Shown here piece after piece: positions 1 through 13,748 of a stretch of DNA of 32,584 nt (positions are counted from its first letter, which is position 1; every line of letters starts with the position of its first letter). A program made the position numbers and the translations under genes. Source of the stretch: Gammaproteobacteria bacterium (GTDB lineage Bacteria; Pseudomonadota; Gammaproteobacteria; Ga0077536); the NCBI GenBank assembly GCA_019747795.1, contig JAIEQK010000069.1:1-32584 (forward strand). The letters run 5' to 3'. The notes beneath the pieces are model-generated. The model was not told the DNA's origin. It saw only the letters and a program-made list of their open reading frames with translations, and searched no databases.

Positions 1-858
1 GTCGACTGGCGCGGCGGGCTGTCGCTGGCGGCGCTCGAACTCGAGCCGCGCATCGCCTGGGCGGACGGGATCCGCGCCCGCTGGCCGGCCGGTGAGCACG
101 CCGCGCACCTCGCGCTGGACACGTTTCTCGACGAGCGCGTGGGTGAGTACGCCGCGCGCCGCGATCGGCCGGCCATCACCGGGACGTCAGCACTGTCGCC
201 CTACCTGGCGGTGGGCGCGCTCAGCGCGCGCAGCGCCTGGCACGCAGCGGGGCAGGGCGGGCGCGCCGCCGCCGATGCCTGGCTGCGGCAACTCGTGTGG
301 CGCGAGTTCGCCTACCACCTGCTGTTCCATTTCCCGCACACGCCGACCGCGCCATTTCGTCCGGAGTGGTCGGCATTCCAGTGGTGCGAGGCGCCTGTGG
401 CCCTGGCGCGCTGGCAGCGCGGCGAGACCGGTATTCCGCTGGTGGACGCCGGCATGCGCGAACTGTGGGTCACGGGATACATGCACAATCGAGTGCGCAT
501 GGTGGTGGGGTCGCTGCTGTGCAAGCACCTCGGCGTGCACTGGCTGGAAGGCGCACGCTGGTTCTGGGACACCCTGGTCGACGCGGACCTGGCCAACAAC
601 ACACTCGGCTGGCAATGGACCGCCGGCTGCGGCGCGGACGCGGCGCCCTATTTCCGCATCTTCAACCCGGTGAGCCAGGGCGTGAAGTTCGACGCCGACG
701 GCGCCTACGTGCGCCACTGGCTGCCGGCGAGGGCGCACCTGCTGGACGCGGCGGTGCACGACCCCGCCGTGCCGGCGCCCGGCTACCCTGCGCCCATCGT
801 CGATCTCGCCGCGGGACGCGAGGCCGCCCTGGCGCGCTACGCAGACCTCAAGCGGTGA
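1..858 (+). CDS. phrB: Deoxyribodipyrimidine photolyase (cryptochrome/photolyase family), 5'-truncated by the window edge
   Basis: Frame 1 is open from base 1. FAD-binding-domain motifs: TGTSALSPYLAVGALSAR, LVWREFAYHLLFHFPH, TGIPLVDAGMRELWVTGYMHNRVRMVVGSLLCKHL, DADLANNTLGWQWTAGCGADAAPYFRIFNP. Confidence 0.93.
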   Translation, partial: VDWRGGLSLAALELEPRIAWADGIRARWPAGEHAAHLALDTFLDERVGEYAARRDRPAITGTSALSPYLAVGALSARSAWHAAGQGGRAAADAWLRQLVWREFAYHLLFHFPHTPTAPFRPEWSAFQWCEAPVALARWQRGETGIPLVDAGMRELWVTGYMHNRVRMVVGSLLCKHLGVHWLEGARWFWDTLVDADLANNTLGWQWTAGCGADAAPYFRIFNPVSQGVKFDADGAYVRHWLPARAHLLDAAVHDPAVPAPGYPAPIVDLAAGREAALARYADLKR

Positions 859-1440: not shown

Positions 1441-1953
1441 CTAGCCGGTCTTGGCCATGAAGGCCTTGAACGCCGCGCCGAAGCCGTCCAGGGAAAGCGG
1501 TACCTTGATGGGCTTGCGCGCGCCGTCGTAGAAGGTGATTTCGAGCTGACGTCCCTGCGCGAGCTGCTGCGCGGTGCTGTCGCGTAGTTTCATCGCGGCG
1601 CGGCAGCCGTCCGGTTCACATCGCTCGATGGGAAAGGTGGCGGGCGTACCGGCGTCAATGCGTATGGTCACGCCCGGCGGCAGCGCGATGCCGAGCGGCA
1701 GGCTCAGCAGCACCGTCGGCTGGGTGTCCGGCGGCACGCGACCGACGCCGAACTGCAGCACGGGTTCGCCACCGGTCTTCAGAACCAGGTTCTGGAACAG
1801 GATGCACTCGGGCCGGCCGTCCTGGTCGGCGCAGCGCAGGGTCCAACTGCCGAACACGTCCTGACTGTCCTCCGCAAATGGCGCCGGCGGCGCGGCGAGC
1901 AGCACGAGGAGCAGCAGCAGGGACAGGTGGCGGTGCATCGGCGCGATACGCAT
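1441..1953 (-). CDS. Invasion-associated locus B (IalB)-like secreted protein
   Basis: Signal peptide, then FGSWTLRCADQDGRPECILFQ...LPLGIALPPGVTIRIDAG...CEPDGCRAAMKL, typical of the IalB family. Confidence 0.8.
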   Translation of the reverse strand: MRIAPMHRHLSLLLLLVLLAAPPAPFAEDSQDVFGSWTLRCADQDGRPECILFQNLVLKTGGEPVLQFGVGRVPPDTQPTVLLSLPLGIALPPGVTIRIDAGTPATFPIERCEPDGCRAAMKLRDSTAQQLAQGRQLEITFYDGARKPIKVPLSLDGFGAAFKAFMAKTG

Positions 1954-1977
1954 GAGGATGGCGCACTCTACCGCAGT

Positions 1978-2439
1978 TCACCCCCGCCCGGCAGCGCGCG
2001 CGCGCCACCACGCCGGCACGCGCGGGGCCTCGACCACGTCGTAATCGTCGTAGGGCTTCAGATCCAGCACCGGACTGCCGTGCCAGGCGTCCAGGCGCCG
2101 CACCGTGAGGCGTGCACCGTCCACCGCCAGCAGTTCCACCACCGCGAGCCCTATGCCGTTCGGATGGTTGCGCCCGCGCGCCGCGAACACACCCACCGGC
2201 GGTCGTTGCGGGTCGTGGCGCAAGTTCACGCGCAGATCCGGCGCTGGAGTGGCGCGATCCAACCCGAACAGCACGAACAGGTGCGAGTAGTCGCCGATGC
2301 CGACCAGGCCCTGGTCGTAGGGCGGGAACATCTCGATGGTGGAGATCATCTCCCTGCGTCGACGCGCCACTTCGTCATTGGGCACATCGGTCAGGATTCG
2401 GCCCAGCGGGCGCCAGTGGAAGCTCTGCTCGGGATGCAT
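1978..2439 (-). CDS. trmO: tRNA (t6A37) N6-methyltransferase TrmO/TsaA (YaeB/UPF0066) family
   Basis: C-terminal part of the 1978..3780 antisense ORF. Contains HPEQSFHWRPLGRI...FGLDRAT...LRHDPQRPPVGVFAARGRNHPNGIGLAVVELLAVDG..LDAWHGSPVLDLKPY. Start at 2439 is a choice; upstream starts are possible. Confidence 0.8.
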   Translation of the reverse strand: MHPEQSFHWRPLGRILTDVPNDEVARRRREMISTIEMFPPYDQGLVGIGDYSHLFVLFGLDRATPAPDLRVNLRHDPQRPPVGVFAARGRNHPNGIGLAVVELLAVDGARLTVRRLDAWHGSPVLDLKPYDDYDVVEAPRVPAWWRARAAGRG

Positions 2440-2550
2440 GTCGCGTCGTCCGTCGTCGAGGTAAAGGCGCCGCGGCACCAGGCCGATAAGGCGGTCACGG
2501 CCGAGGATGCGGCCGTTGACCACGCACACTGTATAAGACCGCGACGACGC

Positions 2551-3795
2551 ATGCTGCCCGCCCGCAACCAGGAATCGGTGATGCCCGGACGGCTGCGGCC
2601 GTTCGCGCCCTTCGCGCGGCTGCCGGCCGACCAACTGATCCTGGCCGCAGGACGCACGTTGCTGAAGCGCTTCCGCGACGGCGATGTGCTGCTCCCGCGT
2701 GGCAGCCGCGACGCGGCCGACTTCTTCCTGCTCGAGGGGCGCGTCAGCCTGCTCGACGCGGACGGCAACTCGCGCCTGATCGCGAGCGGCACGCCGGAGG
2801 CCGCCAACCCGCTCTCGCCGCTGCGACCCTCGCTGTTCGAGGTGCGCGCGCTCGGTCCGGTGGCCTGCGCCAAGGTGGCGCGCGACGACATCGAGGTCCT
2901 GCGCGGCGTGGCTCTGCGACTGTCCAACGCGCCACCGAGCGCGGCGCCGGAGCCCGACGCGACCATCGGTCTGTTCGATTCGCTCGAAGCGGACATCGCC
3001 GCCGAGCGGCTCAAGCTCCCCAGCCTGCCCGATCATGCGCTGCGCGTGCGCGCCGCGATCGCCGACGCCAACTGCGACGCGCGACGCATCGCCGACCTGC
3101 TCGCGGCAGACCCGGCGGTGGCCGCCAAGATTCTCAAGATTGCCAACAGTCCGCTGTGCCGAGGCGCGACCGCGGTGAATTCCCTGCGTGAAGCGGTCAA
3201 TCGCATCGGGCTCTTCACGGTCGGCGAACTGGTGGTGTGCTTTTCGCTCAAGGATCTGTTCAAGACCAGCGCGCCCGGGCTGCGCGAGCGTTTCGGCGAA
3301 CTCGTCATCGAGGCCGTGCGGGTCGGTGCCGCGGCGAACGTGGTCGCGGCGCGCGTGCGCGGCGTCGGCGGGGAACAGGCGCTGGTCGCCGGCTTGCTCA
3401 GCAATATCGGCGACTACGTGGTGCTGGAGCGCCTCGCCAGTCAGCCGTCGCTGCTCGCCGATGCGTCGCGCCTGGAACGCGCGCTGGCGCAGCACGGTCC
3501 GCGCATCGGGGCGCTCGTGTGCCGGCACTGGCAGCTTGGCGACGACGTCGTGGAGGCGGTGGCCCGCGCGCACGACTGGGGTCATCAGGCCGACGGCGCG
3601 CCCTCCCTCGCAGAGGTGGTGCTGTGCGCGCGCTACCACGCGCTGCTCAGCCTGCAGAAGACGGCGCAGCTGGTGAAGTCGGCCGAGATTCCCGCGCTGC
3701 GGGTGCTGGGGGAGACACTCACGCCCCAGGTGAGCGTGGAAATCATTCGCGAGTCGCGCGCGCGGGTCGAGGCGCTGCAACAGGCACTCGGCTGA
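2551..3795 (+). CDS. HDOD domain protein with N-terminal cyclic-nucleotide-binding-like domain
   Basis: HDOD signature KLPSLPDHALRVRAAIAD...DPAVAAKILKIANSPLCRGATAVNSLREAVNRIGLFTVGELV...GLLSNIGDYVVLERL. N-terminal ~130 aa resembles a cNMP-binding fold (RFRDGDVLLPRGSRDAADFFLLEGRVSLLDADG). Confidence 0.82.
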   Translation: MLPARNQESVMPGRLRPFAPFARLPADQLILAAGRTLLKRFRDGDVLLPRGSRDAADFFLLEGRVSLLDADGNSRLIASGTPEAANPLSPLRPSLFEVRALGPVACAKVARDDIEVLRGVALRLSNAPPSAAPEPDATIGLFDSLEADIAAERLKLPSLPDHALRVRAAIADANCDARRIADLLAADPAVAAKILKIANSPLCRGATAVNSLREAVNRIGLFTVGELVVCFSLKDLFKTSAPGLRERFGELVIEAVRVGAAANVVAARVRGVGGEQALVAGLLSNIGDYVVLERLASQPSLLADASRLERALAQHGPRIGALVCRHWQLGDDVVEAVARAHDWGHQADGAPSLAEVVLCARYHALLSLQKTAQLVKSAEIPALRVLGETLTPQVSVEIIRESRARVEALQQALG

Positions 3796-3850
3796 GTATC
3801 ACCGGCGGTCGCGCATGGCCGCCCGCCCGCGAAAGCGCTACCCTCGGCGC

Positions 3851-6800
3851 ATGCTCCCCGAGTTCTTCGATCCCGCGGTCGCGCGCTGGTTCACGGCGAC
3901 ATTCCCGGCCGCCACGCGCTGCCAGCTGCGCGCCTGGGCCGCGCTTGCCGACGGTCGCCACACCCTGGTCGCGGCGCCCACCGGCTCGGGCAAGACGCTC
4001 GCCGCCTTCCTGGTCGCGCTGAACACGCTCGCCGAGTCCGCGCGGCGCGGCGCGCTGGCGCAGGAGACGGCAATCCTCTACGTCTCGCCGCTGAAGGCGC
4101 TCGGCAACGACATCCAGCGCAACCTCGAGCAGCCCCTCGCCGCCATCCAGGCCCTGCTCGCCGAGGACCTGGGCGAGGCGCCGGCCATCACCACCGCGGT
4201 GCGCAGCGGCGACACCTCCCCATCCGCGCGCCAGCTGATGCGCAAGCGCCCGCCGCACATCCTGGTCACCACGCCCGAATCGCTCTACATCCTGCTGACC
4301 AGCGAGCGTGGTCGCGAGACCCTGCGCACGGTGCGCACGGTGATCATCGACGAGATTCACGCCGTGGTCGGCAACAAGCGCGGCGCGCACCTCGCCTTGA
4401 GCCTCGCGCGGTTGGACGCCTGCGCCGCGAACCCGCCCCAGCGCATCGGCCTGTCCGCCACCCAGCGGCCCATCGAACGGGTGGCCGAGTTCCTGACCGG
4501 CGGACAGGCGCCGTGCGCGATCGTCGACGAGGGTCACGCGCGGGCGCGGGACCTTGCCATCGAGATGCCGCCTTCACCGCTGGAAACGGTGGTGTCCGCC
4601 GAGGTCTCGGCCGAGATTCGCGCGCGCATGGTCGAACTCATCGAGGCCCATCGCAGCACGCTGGTGTTCGTCAACACGCGACGCATGGCCGAGCGTCTCG
4701 CGCGCGCGCTCGCCGACGAACTCGGCGACGGCGCGGTGTGCGCGCACCACGGCAGCATGGCACGCGAGCGGCGCCTGGACGCTGAAACACGCTTGAAGCG
4801 CGGCGAACTGAAGGCCCTGGTGGCGACCGCCTCGCTCGAACTCGGCATCGACGTCGGCGACATCGACCTCGTGTGCCAGCTCGGCACCACGCGCACGCTG
4901 GCGATGATGCTGCAGCGTGTGGGACGCGCCGGCCACGCGGTCGATGGTGTGGCGCGCGGCCGCCTGTTCCCACAGACCCGCGACGAACTGGTGGAGTCCA
5001 TCGCGCAGCTCGACATGGTGAGCCGCGACGAACTCGACAGCGTCGAGATCCCGCCCGGTCCGCGTGACGTGCTGGCGCAGCAGATCGTCGCCGAGGTCGC
5101 GATGGGCGAGCGCGGCTGCGACGAGCTCTACGGCCTGTGCCGGCGCGCCTGGCCCTACCGCGCGCTGGCGCGCGAGGCCTTCGACGGCATCCTGCGCATG
5201 CTGGCCGAAGGCTTCAGCCTGGCCCACGGCCGGCGTTCCGCCTACCTGCATCTCGACGAGGTCAACGGGCGGGTCAGCGCGCGGCGCGGCGCACGCCTGA
5301 CCGCCGTGACCTGCGGCGGCGCGATCCCCGACAACGCCGACTACGACGTCATCGCCGAGCCCCAGGGCGAACTGGTCGGCACGGTGAACGAGGACTTCGC
5401 CATCGAGAGCCTGCCGGGCAACATCTTCCAGCTCGGCAACACCGCGTGGCGCGTGCTGCGCGTCGAGCCCTCGGGGCTGCGCGTCGAGGACGCCGCCGGG
5501 CAACCGCCCAACATGCCCTTCTGGCTGGGCGAGGCGCCGGCACGCAGCGCGGAGTTCTCCTCCGCCGTGGCGCGGCTGCGGCAGCGCGCGGCGGACGCCA
5601 TCGACGCTGGCGCACGCGATCCCGCGGGCCTCGCTGTCGAACTCGCCACCATTCCCGGCGTGGGCGCAGTCGCCGCGCGCCAGGCCGCCGAGTACCTGCT
5701 CACCGGTTACCTGGCGCTCGGCGCGATGCCGACCCAGGACACGCTCGTGATGGAGCGCTTCTTCGACGAGTCGGGCGGCATGCAACTCGTCATCCATTCG
5801 CCTTTCGGCAGCCGGCTCAACAAGGCCTGGGGACTCGCGCTGCGCAAACGCTTCTGCCGCACCTTCAATTTCGAACTGCAGGCGGCGGCGGTGGAAGACG
5901 CCATCGTGCTGTCGCTGGGCGCGGTGCACAGCTTCGATCTCGCCGAGGTGTGGCGCTACCTGCACCCGACCAGCGTGCGCGACGTGCTGGTGCAGGCGGT
6001 GCTGACCGCGCCAATGTTCACCGTACGCTGGCGCTGGGTGGCGGGCTGCGCGCTCGCCATCGAGCGCTTTCGCGCGGGGCGCAAGACGCCGCCGCGCCTG
6101 CTGCGCATGAACGCCGAGGATCTCGCCGCGGTCGTGTTCCCGGACCAGCTCGCGTGCGCGGAGAACCTGGCCGGCCGCCGCGAGGTCCCCGATCACCCGC
6201 TGGTCAACCAGGCGCTGGACGACTGCCTGTTCGAGGCGATGGACATCGCCGCGCTCGAGCAATTGCTGGACGACGTCCACGCCGGACGCAAGCGACTGGT
6301 GGCGCGCGATCTGACCGAGCCATCGCCCTTCGCGCTGCAGGTGCTGAACGCCAACCCCTACGCGTTCCTCGACGACGCGCCGCTGGAAGAGCGGCGCACC
6401 CAGGCGGTGAGCAGCCGGCGCTGGTTGGACGCGGGCAGCGCACGGGATCTCGCCGCGCTCGATCCGGCCGCCATCGAACGGGTGCGGGACGAAGTGTGGC
6501 CACGCGCGCGCGGCCTGGACGAACTGCACGACGCCGTGCTGCTGCTCGGGCTCGTGAGCGACGCTGAACTCGCGAGCTGCGCCGAGCCGGACGCGGTGCC
6601 GCGCCTGCGCGCCTGGCTGGACACGCTGTACGAACAGGGCCGCGTGCTGCGCGTGCGTGGCGCGCGGGCGACGTGGTGCGCGACCGAGAGGCAGCACGAA
6701 GCGCGCGCGCTGCTGGCGAGTGATGCCCTCAGCGGCAGCGCCGCCGCCGAGGCTTTTCGCGCGCCGCCGACGCCACCGCGCGAGGTTGCGCTCGCCGCCC

Positions 6801-8185
6801 TGGTGCGCAGCCGCCTGGAGCTCTGCGGGCCGGTCACGCTGGAGACGCTCGCCGAACATGTACCCGCGACGCCGCGCGAGATCGAGCACGCGCTGCTCGG
6901 TCTCGAACAGGCCGGCATTGCGCTGCGCGGCCAGTTCACGCCGGGCGAGACCGGTCGCGAATGGTGCGATCGGCGTCTGCTCGCGCGCATCCATCGGCTC
7001 ACGCTCAACCGTCTGCGCCAGGAGATCGAGCCGGTCCCGAGCGGCGCCTTCCTGCGCTTCCTCGCCGACTGGCAGCATGTCGCGCAGGACGCCCGCGTCG
7101 AAGGCGCCGGCGGCCTCGGCGCGGTGCTCGCCCAGTTGTCGGGCTTCGAAGCCCCGGCCAGTGCCTGGGAGAGCGACCTCCTGCCGGCGCGGGTGCGAGG
7201 CTACGACGGCCGCTGGCTGGACGATGCGCTGCGCGCCGGGCGCGTGGTGTGGCTACGCCTGAGTCCCAAGCGCAGCGCGGCGCCGCGTCTCGCCGGCACG
7301 CTGCGCTCGACGCCCGTCAGCCTCGTTCTGCGCAGCGAGTTGCCTGCGTGGCTGGCGCTGGCCGGGCAGGACGAGGCGCCGCCGCTCAGCGCGGCGGCGC
7401 GCCAGGTGCTGGCCCACATCGAGAGCCGCGGCGCGGCCTTCTTCGACGACATCGTCGCTGCCGGTGGGCTGTTGCGCAGCCAGGTGGAGAATGCCCTGGA
7501 CGAACTCGCCGCCGCGGGGCTCGTGACCTGCGACAGCTTCACCGGGCTGCGCGCGCTCACCACGCCGGTCGCCAAGCGCAATCCGCTTGGTCGCCGCGCG
7601 CGACGCACGACCTTGCCCGGCATCGAGGATGCGGGGCGCTGGGATCGGGTGCCGCGTCCGGCGAGCGTGGACGAGTCCGCGCTCGACGAGGCCAACATCG
7701 AGGTGCTGGCGCGTGCGCTGCTGCGTCGCTATGGCGTGGTGTTCCGCCGCGTACTCGAGCGCGAAGGCGGCGCGCCGCCCTGGCGCCTGCTGGTGCGAGT
7801 GCTGCGCCGACTGGAAGCGGCGGGCGAGGTCCGTGGTGGACGCTTCGTCGCCGGTGCCACGGGCGAGCAGTTCGCGCTGCCGGAAGCGGTCGGCGCGTTG
7901 CGCGAGTGCGCCCGGCGTGAAGCCGTCGCCGCGCCGCTGCGTCTGAGCCTCGCCGATCCGCTCAACCTCACCGGCGGCGTCCTGCCAGGAGAGCGGCTGG
8001 CGGCGCTGCCCGGCGGGCATTTCGCGCTGCTGCACGGCGAAGCCGTGGCGGTGAAGCAGGGCGCGGAGGTGCGGCTCCTGCGCGAACTGGATGCGGCCGC
8101 CGCGCTGCGCGTCCGCACCGCGCTCATCGGTGGGCTGGGCGGCTCGAGCGCCGGCCTCGGTCCGCGACGCCGGCGTCTGCGCTGA
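3851..8185 (+). CDS. lhr: Lhr-type large DEAD/H-box ATP-dependent helicase
   Basis: APTGSGKTLAAFL (Walker A), VIIDEIHAVVGNKRGAHLALSLARLD, GLSATQRPIE, SLELGIDVGDIDLVCQLGTTRTLAMMLQRVGRAGHA; about 1444 aa with a long C-terminal region. Confidence 0.93.
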   Translation: MLPEFFDPAVARWFTATFPAATRCQLRAWAALADGRHTLVAAPTGSGKTLAAFLVALNTLAESARRGALAQETAILYVSPLKALGNDIQRNLEQPLAAIQALLAEDLGEAPAITTAVRSGDTSPSARQLMRKRPPHILVTTPESLYILLTSERGRETLRTVRTVIIDEIHAVVGNKRGAHLALSLARLDACAANPPQRIGLSATQRPIERVAEFLTGGQAPCAIVDEGHARARDLAIEMPPSPLETVVSAEVSAEIRARMVELIEAHRSTLVFVNTRRMAERLARALADELGDGAVCAHHGSMARERRLDAETRLKRGELKALVATASLELGIDVGDIDLVCQLGTTRTLAMMLQRVGRAGHAVDGVARGRLFPQTRDELVESIAQLDMVSRDELDSVEIPPGPRDVLAQQIVAEVAMGERGCDELYGLCRRAWPYRALAREAFDGILRMLAEGFSLAHGRRSAYLHLDEVNGRVSARRGARLTAVTCGGAIPDNADYDVIAEPQGELVGTVNEDFAIESLPGNIFQLGNTAWRVLRVEPSGLRVEDAAGQPPNMPFWLGEAPARSAEFSSAVARLRQRAADAIDAGARDPAGLAVELATIPGVGAVAARQAAEYLLTGYLALGAMPTQDTLVMERFFDESGGMQLVIHSPFGSRLNKAWGLALRKRFCRTFNFELQAAAVEDAIVLSLGAVHSFDLAEVWRYLHPTSVRDVLVQAVLTAPMFTVRWRWVAGCALAIERFRAGRKTPPRLLRMNAEDLAAVVFPDQLACAENLAGRREVPDHPLVNQALDDCLFEAMDIAALEQLLDDVHAGRKRLVARDLTEPSPFALQVLNANPYAFLDDAPLEERRTQAVSSRRWLDAGSARDLAALDPAAIERVRDEVWPRARGLDELHDAVLLLGLVSDAELASCAEPDAVPRLRAWLDTLYEQGRVLRVRGARATWCATERQHEARALLASDALSGSAAAEAFRAPPTPPREVALAALVRSRLELCGPVTLETLAEHVPATPREIEHALLGLEQAGIALRGQFTPGETGREWCDRRLLARIHRLTLNRLRQEIEPVPSGAFLRFLADWQHVAQDARVEGAGGLGAVLAQLSGFEAPASAWESDLLPARVRGYDGRWLDDALRAGRVVWLRLSPKRSAAPRLAGTLRSTPVSLVLRSELPAWLALAGQDEAPPLSAAARQVLAHIESRGAAFFDDIVAAGGLLRSQVENALDELAAAGLVTCDSFTGLRALTTPVAKRNPLGRRARRTTLPGIEDAGRWDRVPRPASVDESALDEANIEVLARALLRRYGVVFRRVLEREGGAPPWRLLVRVLRRLEAAGEVRGGRFVAGATGEQFALPEAVGALRECARREAVAAPLRLSLADPLNLTGGVLPGERLAALPGGHFALLHGEAVAVKQGAEVRLLRELDAAAALRVRTALIGGLGGSSAGLGPRRRRLR

Positions 8186-8199
8186 GCGCGCAGTCCGGC

Positions 8200-9348
8200 A
8201 TGAAGATCGTTCTCGCCCCTGATTCGTTCAAGGAGAGCTTGCCAGCCGCCGAGGTCGCCGCCGCGCTGGCCGAAGGCCTGGCACTGGCCCTGCCCGACGC
8301 GCGCCTGGTGTGCGTACCGGTGGCGGACGGTGGCGAAGGCACGTTGGACGCGCTGCTCGCGGCCACCGGCGGCCACGCGTACCCGGTGACCGTGCAAGGC
8401 CCGCTCGTCGGCACGGTGACGGCGCGCCTGGGCGTGCTGGGTGACGACGAAGTGGCGGTGATCGAATCGGCGCAGGCCGCCGGCTTGGCGCTCGTACCGC
8501 AAACTCTCAGGGACCCGATGCGGACCACGTCTTTCGGCATCGGCGAACTCGTGCTCGCGGCCCTGGACCGCGGACTGCGGCGCTTCGTGGTGTGCCTGGG
8601 TGGCACGGCCACGGTCGATGGAGGCGCCGGCATGCTGCAGGCGCTGGGGGCGGTGTTCCTGGACGCGCAGGGACGGCCGCTGGCGGCGCCCTTGCGCGGC
8701 GCCGACCTGGACCAGGTGGCGGGCGTGCGATTGGACCGCTTCGACCCACGCGTCGTCGCGAGCGACTTTCAGATCGCCTGCGACGTCGACAATCCTCTCA
8801 CCGGGCCACTGGGCGCCGCCGCCGTGTTCGGTCCGCAGAAGGGCGCGACGCCGACGCAGATCCCGCGCCTGGACGCGGGGCTCGACAAGCTCCACCGCGC
8901 GCTTGCAGTCAGTACCGGCCGACAGGTGGCCGAGTTGCCCGGCGCCGGTGCGGCAGGTGGCCTCGGTGCCGCCGCCCTGGCCTGCCTCCCCGGAGGACTG
9001 CGTCCAGGCATCGACCTGGTGATGGACGCGGTCGGTCTCGCCGGCCATCTCGTCGACGCCGACCTTGTGGTGACGGGGGAGGGCAGGGTGGACAGCCAGA
9101 CCCTCCACGGCAAGGCGCCGGCCGGCGTTGCCCGCCTTGCGCGCTCGCTCGGCGTGCCGGTGATCGCGGTCGGCGGCAGCCTGCCGGCCGACCGGAACCT
9201 GCTGCTGGACGAGACCTTCGACGCCTTCGAATCAGTCGTCACCAACCCCTGTGACCTGGCCGAGGCCCTGGCAAATGCCCGTCCGCAACTGGTGGCGGCC
9301 GGTGTACGTGTCGGCCGCTGGCTGACTCTGCTCGACACCCGCCCCTAG
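8200..9348 (+). CDS. Glycerate kinase (GarK/GlxK family)
   Basis: MKIVLAPDSFKESLPAAEVAAALAEG, PVADGGEGTLDALL, CLGGTATVDGGAGMLQALG, LVVTGEGRVDSQTLHGKAPAGVAR. Confidence 0.93.
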   Translation: MKIVLAPDSFKESLPAAEVAAALAEGLALALPDARLVCVPVADGGEGTLDALLAATGGHAYPVTVQGPLVGTVTARLGVLGDDEVAVIESAQAAGLALVPQTLRDPMRTTSFGIGELVLAALDRGLRRFVVCLGGTATVDGGAGMLQALGAVFLDAQGRPLAAPLRGADLDQVAGVRLDRFDPRVVASDFQIACDVDNPLTGPLGAAAVFGPQKGATPTQIPRLDAGLDKLHRALAVSTGRQVAELPGAGAAGGLGAAALACLPGGLRPGIDLVMDAVGLAGHLVDADLVVTGEGRVDSQTLHGKAPAGVARLARSLGVPVIAVGGSLPADRNLLLDETFDAFESVVTNPCDLAEALANARPQLVAAGVRVGRWLTLLDTRP

Positions 9349-9525
9349 AACGTTCCTTCGCTCTGATGATGTTCTGATCACCCGTTCGGGCAAAAAAATT
9401 TTGTTCGAGGTTTGCATACGGGAAGAAATGGGGCGTGCGGTCCGGTTCCCGAACTTCGAAGGTGGTTCGCATCCTTCGTGTTCGAGATGTATCTTGCGAA
9501 GATTATCCATGCGTACGGGAAATTT

Positions 9526-9744
9526 ATGTCTCCGGAAGAGTTCGGTCGCCTCGTTCGTGCCGAAAGGCGGCAACAGAAACTCAGGCAGGGCGAATTGGCC
9601 GCGCTGGCGGGGGTCGGTAATCGTTTCCTGTCCGACCTCGAGAACGGCAAGCCGACGGTCGAACTGGGGCGGGCGCTCCAGGTGCTGGGCATGCTGGGCC
9701 TCACGATGAGTGTCAGGCCTCGCGACTGGCGGGACGTCGAGTAA
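9526..9744 (+). CDS. hipB: HipB-like XRE-family HTH transcriptional regulator
   Basis: EFGRLVRAERRQQKLRQGELAALAGVGNRFLSDLENGKPTVELGRALQVLGMLGL is a canonical HipB HTH, immediately upstream of a HipA homolog. Start could be 9487 instead. Confidence 0.85.
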   Translation: MSPEEFGRLVRAERRQQKLRQGELAALAGVGNRFLSDLENGKPTVELGRALQVLGMLGLTMSVRPRDWRDVE

Positions 9745-9749
9745 GGGAC

Positions 9750-11051
9750 ATGCAATACACGCAACTCGATGTCCATCTCGCCGGGCGGCGCGTCGGCCGC
9801 TTGAGCGAATCGCCGTCGGGCCAATGGTCCTTCGTGTATGCCGCCGCGCCGGCCGACCCGCCGCCGGCGCCCATCTCGCTCGCGCTGCCGCGGCACCAGA
9901 ATGCCTACCACGGCGACCGCGTGCGGGCGGTGTTCGCCAACCTGCTGCCGGAGGGGGAAATCCGGCTACGGCTGACCCAGAGTCTCGGCATCTCGGAACG
10001 CAACGACTTCGCTCTGCTGGCACGCCTGGCTGGCGACTGCGCAGGGGCTCTCAGCCTGCGCGCGCCCGACGCCCCGCCCGCGGATCGCCGCCCGCCCCGT
10101 GCGTTGAACGACGCGGAACTGCGCAACGCCATGGCCATCCTGCCGGTGCATCCGCTGCTCGCGGAGGCCGACGGCCTGCGCGTCACCTTGCCTGGCGAGT
10201 TCGACAAGCTGCCGGTGCGCTTCGCGGACGGTCAGGCGACGCTGATGCTGGACGGCGGACTCACCACCCACATCCTCAAGCCGGCGCGGCCCGGGCTGCG
10301 CGAGTCGGTGGTGAACGAGGCCTACACCAGCGAACTGGCGGCGGCCTTTGGTCTGCCCGTGGCGCGTTGCGAAGTGATCCACGGCCAGGTCGCCGTGCTG
10401 TGCGTGACGCGCGTCGACCGGGAGTCCGACGCGGACGGCGTACGTGCGCTCCCGATGGAAGACTTCTGCCAGGTGGCGGGCCTCAGCCCCCATCAGAAGT
10501 TCACGCGCGAAGGCGGACTGGGCCTGCCGGCCATCGCGCGCATCCTGCGCGATGTCAGCGCGCGCCCGGCGGCCGATCTCCGCGCCCTGATCCAGTGGAC
10601 CATCTTCTGCTTCCTGGTCGGCTTCGGCGCTGCGCATTGCAAGCAGATAGCCCTGCGTCACGGGCCGCGCGCGCCACGCCTGGCGCCGTTCTTCGGGCTG
10701 TGGTCGACCCACGTCTACCCCGGCATGAACTACCGCATGGGCTTTCCGGTCGGCGGGGAGGATCGTCCGGACTGGATGACCGCCGGTCGGTGGCTGGAAT
10801 TCGGACGTCAGATCGGTGTGCGGCCGGTGTATGTGCTGGAGTCGCTGCGTGATGCCGCTGCGAGCCTGCCGCGCCTTGCCGCGGACGTGGAGGAACGCTT
10901 CCAGAAGCAGAACGGCTACGCGGCCATCGTCAAACAGATCCGGGCACTGATCGATCAGCGCGCGCGCCAGGTGCTGGTGTCGATCGAAGCGGAGACCGCG
11001 CGCGGCGAGGAGATGCCACTCGCGGAGGCGGAGGGGCCGACGTCGGCCTGA
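9750..11051 (+). CDS. hipA: HipA-family protein, predicted catalytically dead (pseudokinase)
   Basis: N-terminal HipA_N/couple_hipA pattern (GQWSFVY...ISLALP...VRAVFANLLPEGEIR...FALLARLAGDCAGALSL) and HipA_C pattern (TTHILKP, MEDFCQVAGL, RLAPFFGLWSTHVYPG), but core catalytic residues are substituted. Confidence 0.87.
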   Translation: MQYTQLDVHLAGRRVGRLSESPSGQWSFVYAAAPADPPPAPISLALPRHQNAYHGDRVRAVFANLLPEGEIRLRLTQSLGISERNDFALLARLAGDCAGALSLRAPDAPPADRRPPRALNDAELRNAMAILPVHPLLAEADGLRVTLPGEFDKLPVRFADGQATLMLDGGLTTHILKPARPGLRESVVNEAYTSELAAAFGLPVARCEVIHGQVAVLCVTRVDRESDADGVRALPMEDFCQVAGLSPHQKFTREGGLGLPAIARILRDVSARPAADLRALIQWTIFCFLVGFGAAHCKQIALRHGPRAPRLAPFFGLWSTHVYPGMNYRMGFPVGGEDRPDWMTAGRWLEFGRQIGVRPVYVLESLRDAAASLPRLAADVEERFQKQNGYAAIVKQIRALIDQRARQVLVSIEAETARGEEMPLAEAEGPTSA

Positions 11052-11054
11052 GAC

Positions 11055-11933
11055 TCAGGACGCGAGCGCGGTGGGCGGCACGTAGGTGCCGTGGGCGGAG
11101 ACGTCGGTCAGCACGATCACGTCGCCGTCCAGCGGTTGCGCGAGCAGGTGCTTGCGCGAGACGTTGCGGAAGTCGGCGTCGAGCGGCACGTCGTTGTCGC
11201 GACCGCGACCGACCGAATTGACGCCCGGGTGCAGCGTGTAGCACTTGCCGTCGTCGGTCATGAGGCTCCAGCCGCGCTGGTGGCTCAGTGAGAACCGGTG
11301 ACGCGCGAGCTTGAGCGAGATGCTGGCGCCGCGCGCGAGCTTGATGGTCACGGCTTCGCCTGGCGGCAGCCGACGAAGCTCGTCGCGCTCGAACTGGGCC
11401 GTGGTCTGGTCCGCGCTGAACACCAGGGTCGGCTGAGGATGGGCCATCGCGGGCGCCGGCCGCCTCGAGTCACGCACCAGCGCGAGCACATCGCGCCGTG
11501 CGGCGAGGTAGGCGAGATAGGCGTCGACGGCGACGCGCAGATAGCTTTCTTCGGCGCGCGGGCGCTCCAGCAGCGCCGCGAACATCACCCGCCAGTCATG
11601 GTCCTTGCTGAACACCGCCACGCCGAGTTCATCCAGCGCCGCGGCGTAACTGCCCGCGCCCGCTTCGCAGCGCGCGCGCAATTCGGTGAGACGCCGCTCC
11701 AGGGCGACGATGCCGCGCGCTTCTTCCTCCAGGTCGGCGGCCGCGCGGTGCTGCCAGTCATGGATCCGGGCCGGCGTCACACCGGTGCGCGCAGCCAGCG
11801 CGAAGGCGAAATCGGCCGGCGCGTCGAAGCGCAGGCGCTGTCCGCCCAGGCGTAACTCCACGGCCGGTCCGGCCTTGGCGAACCAGCCGGCGAGACCGCC
11901 CTTCAGGAAGTTCTTGAGGAGAGTGAAAACCAT
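11055..11933 (-). CDS. C-terminal FHA domain protein with uncharacterised N-terminal region
   Basis: C-terminus GVNSVGRGRDNDVPLDADFRNVSRKHLLAQPLDGDVIVLTDVSAHGTYVPP matches the FHA GR..SRxH..GTxV pattern. N-terminal ~200 aa not recognised. Confidence 0.75.
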   Translation of the reverse strand: MVFTLLKNFLKGGLAGWFAKAGPAVELRLGGQRLRFDAPADFAFALAARTGVTPARIHDWQHRAAADLEEEARGIVALERRLTELRARCEAGAGSYAAALDELGVAVFSKDHDWRVMFAALLERPRAEESYLRVAVDAYLAYLAARRDVLALVRDSRRPAPAMAHPQPTLVFSADQTTAQFERDELRRLPPGEAVTIKLARGASISLKLARHRFSLSHQRGWSLMTDDGKCYTLHPGVNSVGRGRDNDVPLDADFRNVSRKHLLAQPLDGDVIVLTDVSAHGTYVPPTALAS

Positions 11934-12488: not shown

Positions 12489-13748
12489 ATGGCCTACAAG
12501 TTCTCCACCCTGGCCTCGCGCTATGTCGGGCACACCGGCACACGCCTGTTGATGGATGACCTCGGCGAGGCCCTGGAAAGCGATCGCGACCTGTGCAACC
12601 TCGGGGGCGGCAATCCCGCGCGCATCCCCGCGATGGACGAAGTGTTCCGCGCGGCCATGGCGCGCGAACTGGAAAGCGGCGCGTTCACCCGACTGGCGGC
12701 GGTCTACGACGGGCCGCAGGGCTACAGGCCCTTCCTGCGTGCGGTCGCGGGCCTGTTTCGACGCCATTTCGGCTGGCCGATAACCGAGGAGCACGTCGCC
12801 GTCACCGCCGGCAGCCAATCGAGCTTCTTCATGCTGTTCAACCTGTTCAGCGGCGAGGGTGCCGACGGCGTGATGCGTCACCTGCGCCTGCCGCTGACGC
12901 CGGAGTACATCGGCTATGGAGACCTGGCGGCGCGCCCGGACGCCATCGTGTCCTCGCGCCCCAGCATCGAACTGCGCGATGGGCGCGACTTCAAGTATCA
13001 CATCGACTTCGACGCCTTGACCCTGGGACCCGAGACCGGCGCGGTGTGTGTGAGTCGCCCGACCAATCCGACCGGCAACGTGCTGTCCCAGGACGAAGTG
13101 GCGCGGCTCATGACGCTGACCGGCGAGGCCGACGTGCCGCTGATCCTGGACAACGCCTACGGCGCGCCCTTTCCCAACATCCTGTTCGCGGCCGGCGAAC
13201 CGCTGTACGCGCAGCACCTGGTGTACTGCCTGAGCCTGTCCAAGCTCGGATTGCCCGGGCTGCGCACCGGCATCGTAATCGCGCACCCGGAGCTCATCGA
13301 GGCGCTGCGCAGCTTCAATGCGATTCTCACCCTGGCCTCCAGCAGCCTGGGCGCGAGCCTGGTGACGCCCCTGTTCGAGAGCGGCGAGGTGCTGCGCCTG
13401 GCCAACGAAGTGGTGCAACCGTTTTACCGAGAGCGCGCCGCGCTGGCCGTGGCCTGGTGTCACCGCTACCTCGCGGACACGCCGTTCCGCATCCACGTGG
13501 CGGAGGGCGCGATCTTCCTGTGGCTGTGGTTTCCCGGTCTGCCGGTGAGCTCACAGCGGCTCTATGAACGACTCAAGGCGCGCAACGTGCTGGTCATTCC
13601 CGGGCAGTATTTCTTCCCGGGCCTGGCCGAACCTTGGGATCACCGCGACGAGTGCCTGCGGATCTCCTACGCGCAATCGGCGCGCGAGGTCGAGCAAGGC
13701 ATCGCGATTCTCGGCGAGGAAGTGCGTCGCGCCTACGCCGAAGGGTGA
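12489..13748 (+). CDS. avtA: Valine--pyruvate aminotransferase
   Basis: MAYKFSTLASRYVGHTGTRLLMDDLGEAL, NLGGGNPARIPAMDEVFR, VAVTAGSQSSFFMLFNLFSG, CVSRPTNPTGNVLSQDEV, YCLSLSKLGLPGLRTGIVIA (PLP-Lys). Confidence 0.92.
   Translation: MAYKFSTLASRYVGHTGTRLLMDDLGEALESDRDLCNLGGGNPARIPAMDEVFRAAMARELESGAFTRLAAVYDGPQGYRPFLRAVAGLFRRHFGWPITEEHVAVTAGSQSSFFMLFNLFSGEGADGVMRHLRLPLTPEYIGYGDLAARPDAIVSSRPSIELRDGRDFKYHIDFDALTLGPETGAVCVSRPTNPTGNVLSQDEVARLMTLTGEADVPLILDNAYGAPFPNILFAAGEPLYAQHLVYCLSLSKLGLPGLRTGIVIAHPELIEALRSFNAILTLASSSLGASLVTPLFESGEVLRLANEVVQPFYRERAALAVAWCHRYLADTPFRIHVAEGAIFLWLWFPGLPVSSQRLYERLKARNVLVIPGQYFFPGLAEPWDHRDECLRISYAQSAREVEQGIAILGEEVRRAYAEG

Follow-up and report, generated by a model that had tools for sequence, protein, structure and literature searches.

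The hipA-like gene at 9750..11051 on the plus strand of the 32,584-nucleotide stretch of gammaproteobacterial DNA analysed here (the window) encodes a protein for which the name HipA pseudokinase is appropriate and the name HipA toxin is not, given that it belongs to the family by domain content and fold and fails the features that define the kinase toxin. Selection preserves this gene alongside its DNA-binding partner, hipB, throughout a clade spread over a gammaproteobacterial order. With slightly more confidence than doubt, we favor a domesticated HipBA pair in which the pseudokinase serves HipB as a structural co-repressor or scaffold.

The open reading frame translates without stops into 433 residues and represents a full-length HipA homologue, in which both family domains exceed the curated Pfam cut-offs (PF07804 HipA_C, 109.4 bits against 30.5 bits; PF13657 Couple_hipA, 87.8 bits against 22.5 bits); the HipA_C profile match proposed as a check in the earlier note is thus present, and it is the sole HipA_C match in the 5.94 Mb assembly. 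Residues were mapped through alignments with E. coli K-12 HipA (hipA, b1507) and with PDB HipA chains, and both bear out the earlier claim that the catalytic base and the two metal ligands of the E. coli enzyme (D309, N314 and D332) correspond to A294, Q299 and G316. These residues lie within a degenerate catalytic motif, GFGAAHCKQ (10620..10646, plus strand; G291 at 10620-10622, A294 at 10629-10631, Q299 at 10644-10646), and a degenerate metal motif, LAPFFGLW (10680..10703, plus strand; G316 at 10695-10697), and the codon positions given originally were right. The Gly-rich loop is altered as had been described, reading RVTLPGEFDK (10179..10208, plus strand) where E. coli has RISVAGAQEK, with T146 at the position of S150, P148 at A152, E150 at A154 and the glycine between the latter two kept as G149. 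Both the D/N/D set and the S-x-A-G-A-Q-x-K loop of active HipA Ser/Thr kinases, here T-L-P-G-E-F-D-K, are absent, and Thr146 could in principle be modified. The broader claim that all key kinase residues are lost goes too far, since K177 (the equivalent of the ATP-binding K181; codon 10278..10280, plus strand), D223 (D237), R221, H296 (H311), K298 (K313), G149 and K153 are kept. An alignment artefact or a displaced catalytic Asp, which the earlier note had named as a possible counter-argument, is ruled out by the ungapped alignment of the active-site motif against both E. coli K-12 HipA and the PDB chains. Laboratory mutants at such positions are treated as kinase-inactive, among them HipA D309Q (structure PDB 3tpt) and HipT D233Q (PMC10627512). 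Catalytic death of the window HipA is well supported, and the loss of the kinase activity itself is inferred.

AlphaFold2 produced a complete HipA fold from an input of 27 sequences (pLDDT 86.8, pTM 0.89), which is the model reported here; an input of 3 sequences gave a pLDDT of 37.7. Residues 138-149 of the Gly-rich loop are of low confidence in this model. Its top 19 PDB matches are all HipA (TM-score 0.76-0.85 by query length), and these best 19 include HipA-HipB-operator complexes.

Relatives were searched for in 148 genomes, as well as across the order (36 genomes), class (387) and phylum (399), and the motif positions were read; the order-level and family-level searches cover an identical genome set. 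A degenerate HipA occurs in 18 of the 36 genomes of the window's order, with hipB upstream of it in all 18 carriers, and no degenerate hipA lacking hipB was found among the 36. Within clade 1 (ten genomes) the motifs read LPGxxxK, G[FYN]G[AG][AG][HF]x[KR]Q and [AGS]P[FL][FY]G, the first catalytic position being always A or G and the second and third invariantly Q and G, and in clade 2, corresponding to genus g4, the motifs are changed further and Arg takes the place of K177. Close orthologues retaining Asp/Asn/Asp, which the earlier note had said would mark a lone decaying pseudogene, were looked for and none was found in the clade. Judged from these motif positions, the residue loss is more than chance, because the orthologues share the same losses while D, N and D are all present in 97 of a further 100 HipA homologues, a set read from the searches of class and phylum and containing four more from the order.

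The three remaining homologues, all outside the clade, deserve mention on their own account. Two have lost the catalytic set in part, namely L163 (genome G498; E/N/G) and L087 (G203; N/N/D). The third, L121 (G098:C249:10101-11912), is a distant HipA with R/T/W at D309/N314/D332 and apparently shows that catalysis was lost completely and independently in another family; a canonical HipA (L021) is encoded in the same genome.

In a tree of 53 HipA sequences that included 17 of the 18 degenerate HipAs, these 17 form one clade (support 100/100) on a long stem (0.77), nested inside canonical HipAs beside L013, L014, L084 and the weakly grouped L087, and one change of state is needed. A single clade placed in this way indicates that the catalytic residues were lost once. 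The main groups of an Lhr tree of the same genomes match those of the HipA tree, and computation shows vertical inheritance of the hipBA pair after this single loss. Correspondingly, where the contig reaches, nearly all 18 carriers share the slot lhr, (glyK), hipB, hipA, (FHA), avtA. In the window, these flanks are the lhr helicase gene (3815..8185, plus strand), which is the conserved left flank; the glycerate kinase gene glyK (8200..9348, plus strand), which is the left flank in most genera and is located elsewhere in some; a gene for an FHA-domain protein (11055..11933, minus strand), a convergent right flank in several genera; and avtA, encoding valine-pyruvate transaminase (12489..13748, plus strand). 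Among the 23 genomes bearing lhr, hipBA is found in 18, a contig break intervenes in two (G008 and G023), and hipB and hipA are jointly and cleanly missing between intact flanks in three (G009, G011 and G024).

Several features of this neighborhood were noted in passing. The FHA gene, whose product belongs to a phosphothreonine-binding domain class, lies 3 bp from the pseudokinase gene, and it persists in G011 and G024 despite the absence of hipBA. Upstream of lhr, the window encodes an HDOD-domain protein (1927-3795, plus strand) with a weak cyclic-nucleotide-binding match, which is less conserved than its neighbors. Two same-genus orthologues (L005 and L006) extend at the C-terminus by ~50-60 residues, in which Ala, Pro, Glu and Thr are abundant and the last residues are QISLLPE; the window protein has no such tail. 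Additionally, a same-genus locus that matches at 77% protein identity and repeats the lhr-glyK-hipBA-FHA arrangement (L002, CAMCBY010000156.1) comes from a MAG contig titled Klebsiella pneumoniae, a record that is evidently mislabelled.

The partner gene hipB (9526..9744, plus strand) encodes a 72-residue HTH protein of the Y4mF-type antitoxin family (PF01381 HTH_3; TIGR03070 couple_hipB, 72.0 bits, just over the cut-off of 71.65), and its end at 9744 places the full-length hipA 5 bp downstream, as had been noted earlier. Its start was set from the orthologues L034 and L035 and is most likely the ATG at 9526, which yields a length like that of its relatives, rather than the upstream TTG at 9412. 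The HTH is kept, and most members have a Trp near the C-terminus that is common to the sister canonical HipBs; in E. coli, the C-terminal Trp of HipB sits in a HipA pocket (PMC10627512).

As in HipBA modules, palindromic sites predicted to be operators precede hipB. Canonical relatives carry copies of TTCCCGNNCGGGAA before hipB, usually three of them at 49-50 bp spacing. In clade 1, the best motif positions are -115 and -18, with mean mismatches of 3.0 and 3.8 against 5.56 for the best of 200 shuffled sets, and these sites are 97 bp apart. This distance is double the canonical one and looks as though the two outer operators survived while the middle one disappeared. Based on the conservation of these positions, the window has a putative HipB operator, TTTGCATACGGGAA, at -115 (9411..9424, plus strand; 3 mismatches) and a putative operator remnant, CATGCGTACGGGAA, at -18 from the hipB ATG (9508..9521, plus strand; 4 mismatches to TTCCCGNNCGGGAA); a further weak operator-like palindrome, CACCCGTTCGGGCA (9379..9392, plus strand; 3 mismatches), is not significant on its own. 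The putative operators are strong in most clade members and weak in the window (3-4 mismatches), where taken alone they give a shuffle p of 0.107. Exact and near operator matches over whole genomes, in G000 and in the order, did not exceed those of a reversed-pattern control; hence, the searches give no sign of a regulon, and support for a target is limited to autoregulation.

Genome G034 has an additional canonical hipBA in another context (L050/L020, G034:C431), with operators at 50 bp spacing and very similar copies in other families (f23, f74, f141 and f156), and this module looks recently mobile. That it carries three operators of the same consensus agrees with the idea that chromosomal HipB, buffered by an inert HipA, neutralizes or represses incoming mobile hipBA modules sharing its operator. 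Such an immunity or anti-addiction role is nonetheless very improbable: another HipA is present in only 3 of the 18 carriers (G017, G031 and G034), G034 holds both modules so that no exclusion is seen, and HipB differs outside the recognition region. As for the pseudokinase itself, a one-sequence scan of viral contigs returned no relative, an alignment-based scan returned only relatives at 30-39% identity, and plasmid matches were all below 60% identity (33-38% among the matches listed); an origin from a mobile element or phage was rejected on these identities.

Purifying selection on the pseudokinase hipA was shown by computation. NG86 omega for pairs within the clade is about 0.08-0.31, a rough range since dS is saturated in most pairs and YN00 is usable on few, and the check proposed in the earlier note, a dN/dS below 1 across the clade, thus had a positive outcome. 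In the reliable, unsaturated pair (L018/L019), omega is 0.16 by NG86 and 0.17 by YN00, and pairs of canonical HipAs give 0.16-0.17 and 0.23, respectively. Moreover, hipA matches its orthologues with an identity similar to that seen for the housekeeping neighbor genes. A lone decaying pseudogene is ruled out by the orthologues, omega and synteny. The idea that a dead, functionless toxin-antitoxin module is slowly decaying would accommodate the joint loss of hipB and hipA from G009, G011 and G024, the weakened operators and the drift of the pocket in genus g4 described below, but it is very improbable in view of frames that stay open over the matched region in the carriers, the omega values, an identity like that of core neighbors and the appearance of new invariant residues across the order.

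The distribution of constraint over the protein was assessed by pairwise column identity at a pocket set of 16 active-site positions. Canonical HipAs have a pocket identity of 0.89 against 0.38 overall. Clade 1 retains 0.72 against 0.50, a level reached by random sets with a frequency of only 0.0015 (0.15%), whereas in clade 2 the pocket (0.51 against 0.50 overall) is not above random. These figures indicate that clade 1 rebuilt its pocket and has retained it since, and that constraint on the pocket was lifted in clade 2. The clade 1 invariants comprise K177, G149, K153, R221 and D223 together with the new residues P148, Q299 and G316. It is possible, though doubtful, that the pair is a ligand-gated regulator in which the pseudo-active site binds ATP, ADP, an alarmone or a metabolite without catalysis and thereby switches HipB operator binding: these invariants and the more-than-random conservation of the clade 1 pocket speak for it, but both metal ligands are gone, and genus g4, with Arg for K177, has lost the pocket conservation and kept the operon, so this cannot be the role throughout the order. 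An extension of this idea to the order-wide branch as a ligand-sensing transcription factor, HipB binding the DNA and the dead pocket of HipA sensing a nucleotide or metabolite, is put forward just as tentatively. The constrained clade 1 pocket and the retained ATP lysine would also suit an enzyme with changed chemistry (e.g., AMPylation or metal-independent transfer) and toxicity either kept or replaced, and pseudokinases such as SelO did turn out to be enzymes. Such an enzyme is very improbable here, as the catalytic base and both metal ligands are lost, the motif offers no compensating conserved acid, and the pocket pattern disappears in genus g4.

Both clades do keep a set of residues that canonical HipAs mostly lack: W26, H321, R329, E337-D-R-P-D-W342, R404, R406 and Q407. 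Given these shared residues and the release of the clade 2 pocket, the order-wide function cannot rest on ATP or metal chemistry, and what is common to the order is probably a protein or DNA surface. The retained, non-catalytic HipA suggested in the earlier note is supported by the clade-wide residue loss, omega below 1 and the ungapped motif. Among the roles it had listed, a structural co-repressor or scaffold fits best because in genus g4 the pocket has ceased to be conserved although the gene, hipB and strong operators are all still present; a nucleotide sensor could apply to clade 1 alone; and a decoy for a HipA kinase of the same genome is unlikely since no other HipA_C protein is encoded.

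Under the co-repressor reading, a canonical chromosomal hipBA would have become fixed beside lhr in the ancestor of one gammaproteobacterial order, HipA catalysis would have been lost once through replacement of D309, N314 and D332, and the pair would then have been passed on vertically. HipB would still bind operators ahead of its own operon, and we infer that the pseudokinase binds HipB and co-represses with it, kept as a non-enzymatic partner that may shape or bridge HipB dimers on the remaining operators, as in known HipBA-DNA complexes. Toxicity to be neutralized by HipB is predicted to be absent, and the pseudokinase would neither kill nor arrest cells. In clade 1, the remodelled and constrained pocket may bind a nucleotide or some other ligand but perform no chemistry on it; genus g4 has lost this constraint, so ligand binding is not a function common to all. 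The positions of E. coli K379 and R382, which we take to be the DNA-contacting pair, are not conserved, and any DNA bridging thus differs in detail. A co-repressor pair is the most economical reading given that catalysis has been lost whereas HipB, the operator positions and new surfaces on HipA persist, and E. coli HipA is itself a co-repressor with HipB, flanking it on operator DNA (PMC3920265). Against it, the window's own operators are weak, the motif searches show no regulon outside the operon, self-repression by itself hardly explains why both genes are kept, and three lineages lost them.

Descriptions of the biology of HipA, the founding persistence toxin, are framed in terms of its kinase activity. 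Full-text searches of open-licence papers turned up no description of a HipA pseudokinase. A HipA that is dead by nature and that selection maintains with HipB across an entire order sets the regulatory role apart from the toxic one, illustrates cleanly how a toxin-antitoxin module can turn into a core gene pair, and supplies natural mutants with which the effect of HipA on DNA-bound HipB can be studied. The long-past loss of catalytic residues, together with selection that still preserves HipA with its DNA-binding partner, suggests a bacterial toxin turned into a harmless gene regulator.

In its hipB-hipA order, its couple_hipB-family HTH partner, its N-subdomain and HipA_C within a complete HipA fold and its palindromic operators ahead of hipB, the locus resembles the HipBA type II modules of E. 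coli K-12, Shewanella oneidensis and the Hip Tree, whose families are characterized by four conserved kinase motifs (Gerdes et al., 2021; PMC8262856). Unlike those modules, the window clade has replaced the catalytic Asp, the metal-binding Asn and Asp and the autophosphorylation Ser, is fixed in the core and vertically inherited, and carries one or two operator sites where those modules have three in a row. Its closest relatives in the tree, the canonical sister HipAs L013, L014 and L084 from other gammaproteobacterial families, share with it a HipB ending in PRGW or PRGY and the operator consensus, as well as EDRPDW in L013, but keep the S-L-A-G-x-Q, GN-x-D-A-H-x-K-N and Y-D metal motifs. Legionella HipBST is likewise a lineage-wide Hip module, with evenly spaced operators and a kinase, HipT, that joins HipB on DNA (PMC10653801); HipT, however, retains kinase activity and toxicity, and HipBST has three components. 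Finally, engineered HipA D309Q and HipT D233Q are changed at the same positions, whereas the changes in the window clade are natural, affect multiple sites and are conserved over an order.
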